A stretch of DNA of 64,000 bases from Melioribacteraceae bacterium (GTDB lineage: Bacteria > Bacteroidota > Ignavibacteria > Ignavibacteriales > Melioribacteraceae), in contig CP129490.1 in assembly GCA_030584085.1 (NCBI GenBank), forward strand, positions 3,505,511 through 3,569,510, written 5' to 3'. Below the pieces are notes generated by a model, which worked only from the letters and a program-made list of their open reading frames with translations, made no database searches and was not told where the DNA came from. The translations under genes were made by a program, and so were the position numbers. Of this stretch, positions 53,287-56,684 are shown piece after piece. Within the stretch, counting starts at the first letter, position 1. The number at the start of each line of letters is the position of its first letter.

Positions 53287-54672
53287 TCACTTTCGATACT
53301 TTGAAATAAACTCCTCAACCTCCGGCAGTCCGCCTTGATAAATTAAATAACCGTTACTTGGTTCGCGTTCAGTTGTTTCACCGTTAATTGGCGTGAGCAT
53401 GATCTCTTTAACTTTCTCAAGATCGTTTGTTTGACCGAGCGCCCAGCCAAGTTTTACATAAGCGACTTCGGGAAGCATATTGGCACAAGGGACAACGCCG
53501 AGATCAAGCATTTCTCGACCGGTTTCGTAAACATACATTTGAACGTATCCCCACAAAGTCTGTACTGTCATGTAAACTGCAATGCCTTTTTCCTGTGCTC
53601 GTTTTAATGCTGGATAAACAGGTTTGTTAACATGACCAAGTCCGGTTCCGGCGATTACAATTCCTTTATAACCGTTATCAATCATAGAGTCAATTATGTC
53701 AGGCTTCATGTTCGGATAGTAATAAACAATTCCTACTTTTTCTTCAAAGACGGGATTAACAATTACATTTTTATCTTTTCTTCTTTTCTTGTAATCTTTT
53801 CTTAAAAGAGTAATTTCATCTCGACTCACTTTTGCAATCGGTATATCTCCAATTGTTCTAAAAGTTGATCGATAAGAAGAATGCATTTTTCTTACTCGTG
53901 TTCCACGATGAAGTAAACCATAAATATCGGAAGTCGGACCAAACATGCAAACCATGACTTCGGCAATATCACTTTCTGCAGCTGTTTTAACCGCATGAAT
54001 TAAATTTAATGCCGCATCGGATGAAGGCCGATCACTTGATCTTTGCGAACCAACCATTACAATCGGCACGGGAGAATTCTGAACCATAAAAGAGAGTATT
54101 GCCGCAGTGTGATGCATTACATCCGTTCCATGTCCTATTACAATTCCTTCAACACCCTTCTCAATTTCGGCACCTATTGCTTTTGCGGTTCCGATCCATT
54201 GTTCTGGACCCATGTTCTCGCTGAATACACCGTAAAGTTTTTCTGTTTCTAAGTTACAGTAATCTGCAAGTTCAGGAACTGAGCCGTAAAGTTCACCCGG
54301 TGAAAATGCGGGAATCACCGCGCCGGTTCTGTAATCTAGTCTACTTGCAATTGTACCGCCGGTCCCAAAAAGTTTAACTCGTGGTTTTCCTTTGTCATAA
54401 GGAAATTCTTTTTCGGGAATCTTATAATGTGCTTCTTTTCTTCCGTTAATTTTTATTTTAGTAATATTTTCAACAGCAACGCCGATGTTATAACCGATTG
54501 GCATTTTTATTACTATATGTTCATCGTCAGCAGTTTCTGAACGAGGGAGAATTATTCCTTTATATTTCCCTTTTTCAGTTTGGATTACTACATCGCTCCA
54601 AACAAATGCATTAAAATTTTTTAATGTTGATAATGCTTTACCGCGGTAACCTTTGAAATCTGATATGCTCAT
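53287..54672 (-). CDS. gatD: archaeal-type glutamyl-tRNA(Gln) amidotransferase subunit D
   Basis: This 461-residue protein has an N-terminal Sm/tudor-like domain (about 1-90: FNAFVWSDVVIQTEKGKYKGIILPR) followed by a type I asparaginase-like domain. The latter has catalytic Thr in LFGTGGTIASRLDY (about residue 105) and GIVIGHGTDVMHHTAA (about residue 180), and Lys-region MVGSQRSSDRPSSDA. This layout, the extra N-terminal domain and the partner GatE next door mark GatD, not plain L-asparaginase. GatD releases ammonia from glutamine for the amidation of Glu-tRNA(Gln) by GatE. GatDE is the archaeal system; most bacteria use GatCAB. The stop codon abuts the DUF559 cassette. Confidence 0.88.
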   Translation of the reverse strand: MSISDFKGYRGKALSTLKNFNAFVWSDVVIQTEKGKYKGIILPRSETADDEHIVIKMPIGYNIGVAVENITKIKINGRKEAHYKIPEKEFPYDKGKPRVKLFGTGGTIASRLDYRTGAVIPAFSPGELYGSVPELADYCNLETEKLYGVFSENMGPEQWIGTAKAIGAEIEKGVEGIVIGHGTDVMHHTAAILSFMVQNSPVPIVMVGSQRSSDRPSSDAALNLIHAVKTAAESDIAEVMVCMFGPTSDIYGLLHRGTRVRKMHSSYRSTFRTIGDIPIAKVSRDEITLLRKDYKKRRKDKNVIVNPVFEEKVGIVYYYPNMKPDIIDSMIDNGYKGIVIAGTGLGHVNKPVYPALKRAQEKGIAVYMTVQTLWGYVQMYVYETGREMLDLGVVPCANMLPEVAYVKLGWALGQTNDLEKVKEIMLTPINGETTEREPSNGYLIYQGGLPEVEEFISKYRK

Positions 54673-54770
54673 TTTTACTCAAATTATGTTAGAAGGTGAA
54701 TGGAACGCAGATGCCGCCGAAAAAAGATTCACTCATATTAAATCTGTGAAAATCTTTTTCTTCTGTGTGT

Positions 54771-56684
54771 TCAGTGTTCCAAAGTTTTTATTTTCTCTGA
54801 GACTAATTTACCATCTATACTCATTTTAACATCTTCCATAACTAATCCCATCAATACTTTAATTCTTCTATCTTCAGTAGAGAAATTTATTTTCTTTAAT
54901 TCTTTTTTCTTTAGTGAAATGATACTCATTAGTTCGTCTTCAAGAATTGGTCTGGGAAGAAGTTCGGGATAAAATTTCCCATGTTGTAATGATTTTTTAA
55001 GAGCAATGAACATTCCCCATCTAGATAATAAACCGGATTTATAATTCAACAAAATTTCGGTCAACATTTCAACAGTAATCAATTCTGGATTAAAACCTAG
55101 TTTTTTCAATCGTTTTGGATACTGAATTAAAGCAACAGCAACGGTCGTAGGATTTAGTTTCCATTCGTTAATTGCCTGTTTAAAAAGATTAGCAAATTTT
55201 GAGATGGATAATTCTCTGATCGTATCTTTCGGAATTCCAAGTTCTTTATACCATTTTTCTCTTTTCCAGAATTGCTCGGGTAGGTCTTGGCTAAGTTTGT
55301 TTAATCTTGCCTTTGTAATTTTTTGTGGCGGTAAATCTGTATCGGGATACATCCTATCAGCGCCCGGTAAAATTCTTTCGAAGCCATTTGTTCCGTCACT
55401 TAACGCCTGTCTTGTTTCCGATGGAATTCCGATTGCGGCTTCTTTGGCGCGGATAATAATTTCTTTGCAAGCTGTACTCGTATCTCTTTCGTCACCCCAA
55501 ACCAATACAATCGTATCATCGTTAGAAGCTCCAACATGCTTTTTGATCTTTTGCCATTCGGCGGAGGTAATAGTATCACCCTTGCTGTCTGAATGAATAA
55601 TATTTGGAATTGTTGTCAGACATGCAATTACTCTAACACGGTCAGAAATTTCTCGAGAAAAATATGTATCTGTTTGAGTCTGCCAATGTAATAAATCTTT
55701 ATAGCCGCGAAGTACTACACATTTTATTTTGTTTCTCTTTTCAATTGCTTCTTGAAGAGGTAAATAGTGGGATGACTTTATTACACCGGTAATGTCTTCG
55801 GTTTTTGATTCGAATGTGCTTTCGGTAATTCCTCTTTTATGAAGTTCCTCTCGTAATCGAAGTAAATTCCACTGTCTCATTGCTTCATTATATGTAAGAA
55901 GTGGTATCATCGGAATTCTTGGAACACCTTTTATTTCGATTCTTGTTCCGCCATCAACGCTAACATTTACATCTTGTCTTGCCGCACCGATTCCTCTTCT
56001 TACATTACCAGAACTTCTTACAAGCGCGCTGCAAAGTAAATTTACTTCTGCAACTTCATGAGGCGTTCTCATATCCGGACCGGTAACAGTTTCAATTAAC
56101 GGCATTCCTAATCTATCTGTTAAATATGTTCGATAGTGACCGACATCGCTCACTTCTCTGCACGAATCCTCTTCGATTGACATTTGCACAATTTCAATAT
56201 TTCGATTCTTATATGGAATTAAACCGTCGAGAGCAAAAATAGCGGTTCGCTGAAATCCCGTTGGAATGCTGCCGTCTAAGTATTGTTTGCGTGCAATATG
56301 AAGTTCGTCAACAATATTGCAGTTATATAGCATCCCGACTTGAATAGCTATGTCTAAAGCTTGATCATTAATTAAGAACGGAGGAGTATCATCCATTTCA
56401 TAAGTGCAGACTGTTTCTCTCTTAATGCGATAAATTATCTCTTTTTTGGTCTTGAATTCCATCAACGCGGTACCGTCGTATTCACCAAGTTCGGAAAGGG
56501 TTGGACGCATGTGACGTAATATTTCGGCATCGTATTCTTCACTGTATTTCCCGGCGGGACACCGGCAGAATAGTTTTTTATCAGTTAATAATTGTTGATG
56601 AATTTCTAGTCCCGATTTAAAACCAACTTCAGCATAATCTTCGGGTGTCATTTCTTCGAAGGGTTTGAATATGAAGGATTTCAT
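54771..56684 (-). CDS. gatE: archaeal-type glutamyl-tRNA(Gln) amidotransferase subunit E
   Basis: This 637-residue protein matches GatE, the GatB paralogue found in archaea. It begins DYAEVGFKSGLEIHQQLLTDKKLFCRCP and continues TVCTYEMDDTPPFLINDQALDIAIQVG, YLDGSIPTGFQRT, RRGIGAARQDVNVSVDGGTRIEIKGVPRI. It then has an inserted AspRS-like GAD domain (about 290-415), lacking in GatB, and GADRMYPDTDLPP. The C-terminal helical YqeY-like tail (about 530-637) binds tRNA. It phosphorylates and amidates the Glu on tRNA-Gln using ammonia from GatD. gatD follows 98 bases downstream on the same strand. Its presence in a bacterial genome suggests transfer from an archaeon. Confidence 0.9.
   Translation of the reverse strand: MKSFIFKPFEEMTPEDYAEVGFKSGLEIHQQLLTDKKLFCRCPAGKYSEEYDAEILRHMRPTLSELGEYDGTALMEFKTKKEIIYRIKRETVCTYEMDDTPPFLINDQALDIAIQVGMLYNCNIVDELHIARKQYLDGSIPTGFQRTAIFALDGLIPYKNRNIEIVQMSIEEDSCREVSDVGHYRTYLTDRLGMPLIETVTGPDMRTPHEVAEVNLLCSALVRSSGNVRRGIGAARQDVNVSVDGGTRIEIKGVPRIPMIPLLTYNEAMRQWNLLRLREELHKRGITESTFESKTEDITGVIKSSHYLPLQEAIEKRNKIKCVVLRGYKDLLHWQTQTDTYFSREISDRVRVIACLTTIPNIIHSDSKGDTITSAEWQKIKKHVGASNDDTIVLVWGDERDTSTACKEIIIRAKEAAIGIPSETRQALSDGTNGFERILPGADRMYPDTDLPPQKITKARLNKLSQDLPEQFWKREKWYKELGIPKDTIRELSISKFANLFKQAINEWKLNPTTVAVALIQYPKRLKKLGFNPELITVEMLTEILLNYKSGLLSRWGMFIALKKSLQHGKFYPELLPRPILEDELMSIISLKKKELKKINFSTEDRRIKVLMGLVMEDVKMSIDGKLVSEKIKTLEH

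Follow-up and report, generated by a model that had tools for sequence, protein, structure and literature searches.

The Ignavibacteria genome studied here encodes, side by side, both subunits of GatDE, the amidotransferase that in archaea converts Glu-tRNA(Gln) to Gln-tRNA(Gln) (PMC9499178). We infer its activity, substrate, and role, and put at about 0.55 the probability that this is a working GatDE of an old bacterial lineage providing an auxiliary or repair route from Glu-tRNA(Gln) to Gln-tRNA(Gln) beside glutaminyl-tRNA synthetase (GlnRS).

The gatE-gatD pair and its products

The window, the whole 64,000-nt stretch of DNA that was analyzed, corresponds to C1:3505511-3569510 of the host's single contig. 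The first-pass annotation had placed GatD and GatE next to each other in it, and this was confirmed: the two ORFs lie on the minus strand in the order gatE, gatD, with 98 bases between them, and both products exceed curated equivalog cut-offs.

53287..54672, minus strand: gatD, glutaminase/asparaginase-type subunit of GatDE, 461 aa (profile and domain matches)
53290..53364, minus strand: GatD C-terminal extension, residues 437-461, EPSNGYLIYQGGLPEVEEFISKYRK (regular expression and alignment)
53887..54363, minus strand: GatD catalytic stretch T104-G-G-T107, H181-G-T183-D184, K262 (residue alignment)
54451..54591, minus strand: GatD N-terminal domain, residues 28-74 (Pfam PF18195, GatD_N; E = 1.7e-14)
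54771..56684, minus strand: gatE, Glu-tRNA(Gln) kinase/amidotransferase subunit of GatDE, 637 aa (profile and model-fold matches)
54774..55277, minus strand: GatE C-terminal helical/YqeY tail, about residues 470-637 (predicted structure)
55416..55823, minus strand: GatE AspRS-type GAD insert, about residues 288-423 (predicted structure)

The host ORFs are genuine GatD and GatE. GatD scores 521.5 bits against NF003217 (cut-off, 310) and 520.1 bits against TIGR02153 (cut-off, 324), and the nearest solved chains by sequence, 1zq1_A and 2d6f_A, belong to archaeal GatDE complexes, with 46 to 51% identity to the archaeal GatDs. The extra N-terminal domain and the two asparaginase-type Thr motifs noticed at first reading are both present. 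Pfam identifies two asparaginase domains (PF00710 and PF17763), and the catalytic residues listed above, T107 and T183 among them, are invariant across 10 bacterial and 2 archaeal GatDs. They contain an asparaginase-type set of two Thr, Asp, and Lys (T107, T183, D184, and K262), whose catalytic roles we take to be those of bacterial asparaginases. The archaeal chains of the two structures (435 and 438 aa) stop 7 to 9 residues past the aligned region, whereas bacterial GatDs continue into a conserved extension of about 25 residues. A regular expression for its motif matched 91 of 99 complete bacterial GatDs, and the other 8 have the same tail with small changes.

GatE reaches 527.8 bits against NF003107 (cut-off, 456) and 460.5 bits against TIGR00134 (cut-off, 319.55). 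Plain GatB models score 55 to 130 bits, far under their cut-offs of 315 to 680, which together with the GatD scores disposes of the concern that the proteins might be a plain GatB and a plain asparaginase. Among solved structures, the archaeal GatDE complexes 1zq1 and 2d6f are closest in sequence (32 to 35% identity to their GatEs). The fold of an AlphaFold2 model (pLDDT, 82.4) is most similar to that of 2d6f_D (Z = 33.6), followed by 1zq1_C (Z = 30.4), with GatB chains lower (Z = 23 to 26). In this model the GAD insert that had been read from the sequence matches AspRS insertion domains with Z of about 11 to 13.5, and the Pfam profile PF02938 (GAD) gives 22.1 bits, slightly below its threshold of 23.4. 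The predicted tail resembles YqeY proteins (Z of about 9) and GlnRS N-terminal domains (Z = 8 to 10); in archaeal GatE the helical/YqeY tail is the tRNA-binding part. By equivalog cut-offs and predicted structure, the kinase domain, the GAD/AspRS-like insert, and the helical-YqeY tail are all present. GatE, chiefly its C-terminal part, diverges more than GatD, while catalytic residues are unchanged between bacterial and archaeal members of GatDE. In genus g68 of family f11 (G353 and G520; loci L157 and L162) GatE evolves fast (43% identity; stem branch, 1.16), and G353 also lacks GatB.

Conservation of the pair

In nearly all of 40 neighborhoods from the host's class gatE is followed by gatD, the exceptions being one contig that ends before gatD and one case of another ORF called between the genes, and the same order holds in most other neighborhoods. 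Most of 90 complete pairs overlap or abut. GatD and GatE distance matrices also agree (Spearman, 0.87), and the two genes thus sit side by side and are passed on jointly. They are under strong purifying selection, with dN/dS values of 0.005 to 0.074 for GatD and 0.02 to 0.14 for GatE in every measurable pair.

The host arrangement is phoH-gatE-gatD-PIG-L. Flanking genes are conserved among close relatives only; the phoH-like neighbor recurs there, while the PIG-L neighbor recurs in none of the neighborhoods from the class or the wider scan. Across about 100 neighborhoods we found no conserved third gene and only a handful of adjacent tRNA genes, none of them for Gln or Glu. No dispersed repeat from the gatE-gatD spacer was found within the window.

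Synthetases, amidotransferases, and tRNAs of the host

The host genome was searched family by family. It contains GatB and one amidase, identified as GatA; for these two subunits the absence of GatCAB, which had been named as possible support for an archaeal origin of the pair, was not observed. The search that the first-pass annotation had proposed also turned up glnS, which directly follows the gene for a single bacterial GluRS; the genome also has AspRS, LysRS, and AsnRS. At the position of Thermus thermophilus R358 the host GluRS has Arg, as does a Borrelia chain of the same search; Arg at this position is a mark associated with discriminating GluRS.

There are two tRNA-Gln genes (CUG and UUG) and three tRNA-Glu genes. 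Base pair 1-72, which had been singled out for inspection, is U1-A72 in both tRNA-Gln species, the same as in relatives and not the A1-U72 reported for archaea; the host tRNA-Asn also has U1-A72. The host tRNA-Gln(UUG) has a GUCU/GGAC D-stem and a four-base variable loop, as in tRNA-Glu, and this resemblance makes mischarging by GluRS plausible.

The same tRNA-Glu-type D-stem and variable loop are seen in tRNA-Gln(UUG) across much of the class (L038 and L086-L115), and the D-stem of tRNA-Gln(CUG) in the class is GUGU/ACAC; these sequences suggest separate origins for the two isoacceptors. Two weak tRNA-family matches in the host, L048 (C1:938615-938677; 35 bits) and L049 (C1:1987361-1987428; 32 bits), were called by ARAGORN in neither case. 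L049 is like a degenerate tRNA-Phe, and both are possibly tRNA remnants.

Action of the pair on a particular tRNA-Gln, another early suggestion, did not hold up: a Glu-like tRNA-Gln(UUG) occurs in 41 of 86 class genomes with GatE versus 103 of 227 without it (P = 0.8), and tRNA-Gln sequences compared by GatE status in the class showed no difference. We likewise rejected a specialization in which GatDE serves the Glu-like UUG species and GlnRS the CUG species, which is contradicted by this equal frequency, by tRNA sequences that are the same regardless of GatE, and by the occurrence of the CUG type without GlnRS.

Coexistence of GatDE with GlnRS and GatB

GlnRS is present in 78/86 GatE-containing class genomes versus 106/227 of those lacking GatE. 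Stratified by family, with kinship below that level uncorrected, the association has a Mantel-Haenszel odds ratio of 21 (P = 1e-6); in family f15, for example, GlnRS occurs in 9/10 genomes with GatE and 2/19 without. GlnRS was above cut-off in 43 of 50 further carriers from a wider scan, a few of which belong to the host's class. In eight class genomes with GatE no GlnRS was detected, and five of these eight are at least 94% complete.

The test for GatB covered 80 genomes. Within the host's order it is present in 23/25 genomes with GatE versus 36/40 without, and its loss is therefore not commoner where GatE occurs (2/25 versus 4/40); for the order, the idea of GatE as a stand-in for lost GatB was rejected. 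Three class genomes have GatE without GatB, and GatB is also missing from all five Bacteroidota carriers examined from outside the class. Carriers with GlnRS and no GatB include G116, G290, G353, and five Bacteroidota genomes, one of them Marinifilum flexuosum DSM 21950; both genomes tested that have GatE and lack GlnRS (G283 and G310) possess GatB. G597, from the host's family, gave two GatB matches (E = 1e-181 and 1e-109).

These counts indicate that bacterial GatDE substitutes neither for GlnRS nor, generally, for GatCAB. It had been suggested that the pair replaces or supplements GatCAB; replacement finds no support, given the GatB and GatA of the host and the GatB counts, and supplementation would be the best reading.

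Proposed function

In the proposed reaction GatD would release ammonia from glutamine or asparagine, and GatE would use ATP to phosphorylate the glutamyl moiety carried by a misacylated tRNA and then amidate it. The likely substrate would be Glu-tRNA(Gln), made when tRNA-Gln is charged by GluRS or by GlnRS misusing glutamate. Because almost every carrier also has GlnRS, Gln-tRNA(Gln) most likely does not come mainly from GatDE, which would instead act as a second or repair route. Given intact enzymes, tRNA-binding parts that have been kept, and the association with GlnRS, the simplest function would be amidation of Glu-tRNA(Gln). Where GlnRS is used, stray Glu-tRNA(Gln) would be an error, whereas cells reliant on GatCAB would amidate all Glu-tRNA(Gln) anyway, which may be why GlnRS favors GatDE.

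Our tentative proposal for bacterial GatDE as a whole, which we hold at slightly less than even odds, is that it is a dedicated amidating repair or back-up enzyme for Glu-tRNA(Gln) that reads U1-A72 tRNA-Gln and is selected because GlnRS is present, so that the cell has both routes to Gln-tRNA(Gln). With U1-A72 in place of A1-U72, bacterial GatE would have to recognize the tRNA differently. The role would also be dispensable, as the 106 class genomes with GlnRS and no GatE do without it, and GatCAB, where also present, could already repair Glu-tRNA(Gln).

It is unlikely, though worth weighing, that GatDE has been repurposed, for example for amide formation on another tRNA or within a special metabolic pathway, and has ceased to act on tRNA-Gln. 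Its redundancy with GlnRS, the lack of the archaeal A1-U72 pair, the likeness of tRNA-Gln in genomes with and without GatE, and the greater divergence of GatE, above all in its C-terminal part, would all fit such a change. A dedicated pathway would, however, be expected to leave a trace, and neither a partner gene nor a nearby tRNA gene is conserved across the neighborhoods; the association is with GlnRS specifically, which points to tRNA-Gln, and the predicted structure keeps the GatE tail and GAD insert.

We consider it improbable that GatDE is the main Gln-tRNA(Gln) route of the host, replacing GlnRS or GatCAB as in archaea. The enzyme does seem fully functional by cut-offs, catalytic residues, dN/dS, and predicted fold, and a few class genomes carry GatE without GatB or without detected GlnRS. 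Against this stand GlnRS in the great majority of carriers, inside the class and beyond it, and GatB in nearly all GatE-containing genomes of the order as well as in the two carriers without GlnRS that were tested.

Distribution and phylogeny of bacterial GatDE

Among 395 genomes of the host's phylum, all 29 matches above the GatE cut-off fall in one class, Ignavibacteria, in which GatE occurs in 86 of 313 genomes (84 above cut-off). The wider scan covered one genome per species, and its carriers are a lower bound: besides the host's class, GatDE occurs in at least ten other bacterial phyla. Carriers among the matches listed include Bacteroidales (with M. flexuosum DSM 21950), Aminicenantes, Planctomycetota, Cloacimonadota, Krumholzibacteriota, Fermentibacterota, Myxococcota, Gemmatimonadota, Acidobacteriota, KSB1, Zixibacteria, Caldisericia, and one Thermoplasmatota metagenome-assembled genome (MAG). 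Marinifilum, Planctomycetota, and Cloacimonadota members exceed both the GatD and the GatE cut-offs.

In the Thermoplasmatota MAG CSMAG_283 (G651), a GatE of the bacterial group (L275, 2257-3585) adjoins archaeal-type GlmU and GlmS. The same MAG has a GlnRS gene (L260; 622 bits), cut at the contig end and 62 to 70% identical to Bacteroidota GlnRS, on a contig that also holds a fragment of an archaeal-type nondiscriminating AspRS; contamination is possible.

We built a quick, unrooted GatE tree of 74 rows, some on long branches, with archaeal sampling confined to two PDB sequences, a Natrinema plasmid fragment with an interrupted reading frame, and the Thermoplasmatota MAG. The tree suggested earlier gave a clear split without a root: the three euryarchaeal GatEs are separated from the bacterial and Thermoplasmatota GatEs with full SH-aLRT support. 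Bacterial groups largely follow phyla, with Bacteroidales, Phycisphaerae, and the host's class each forming its own group. The Aminicenantes GatE falls inside the group of the host's class, which suggests some transfer.

The host pair is an old bacterial GatDE lineage, not a local recent import replacing GatCAB. The first-pass annotation had the pair acquired by the host from an archaeon, in keeping with reviews that describe GatDE as confined to archaea (PMC9499178, PMC8007984), but a recent acquisition by the host species or genus is largely refuted by the many carriers in the class, by the split between bacterial and euryarchaeal GatEs, by G+C and GC3 values of gatE-gatD equal to those of neighboring genes, and by the C-terminal extension shared among bacterial GatDs. 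Many wider-scan carriers are MAGs, but an assembly chimera or archaeal contamination can be dismissed, because the host assembly is one contig of 3,742,376 bases (99.35% complete, 0.08% contamination), other carriers are on single contigs (G128, G290, G408, G520, and CP054675.1), and M. flexuosum DSM 21950 is cultured.

Comparison with known systems

According to a review, archaea lack GlnRS altogether (PMC9499178), and a survey from 2014 knew of no bacterium with both Gln-tRNA(Gln) routes (PMC4206432). The sequences of cultured M. flexuosum and of several single-contig genomes combine GlnRS with an apparently functional GatDE. We found no report of bacterial GatDE in the open-access literature, subscription papers and preprints being outside the scope of the search; automatic annotation will already be naming such bacterial gatD and gatE genes. 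Should GatDE repair Glu-tRNA(Gln), amidation would represent a novel form of proofreading that bars glutamate from glutamine positions; if it does not, an archaeal-type translation enzyme would have acquired another substrate across a dozen phyla.

Bdellovibrio, Deinococcus, and Thermus, which have AsnRS, GlnRS, and GatCAB together, likewise keep direct synthetases beside a tRNA-dependent amidotransferase, and in these bacteria tRNA-dependent asparagine synthesis accounts for GatCAB (PMC4206432). That explanation is not transferable to GatDE, since the archaeal enzyme serves Gln-tRNA(Gln) only. Bacterial GatCAB shares with GatDE its overall chemistry and, in GatB, a homologous kinase/YqeY subunit, but GatE has the AspRS-type insert, and an asparaginase-type GatD partner replaces the amidase GatA plus GatC. 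With archaeal GatDE (Methanothermobacter, 2d6f; Pyrococcus, 1zq1) the host enzyme shares both subunits, all domains, the catalytic residues, and the overall predicted fold. It differs in the C-terminal extension of GatD, in the U1-A72 pair of the cell's tRNA-Gln, and in its setting: archaeal GatDE works in cells with a nondiscriminating GluRS and no GlnRS, whereas the host has GlnRS, and bacterial GatDE coexists with GlnRS and often with GatCAB.
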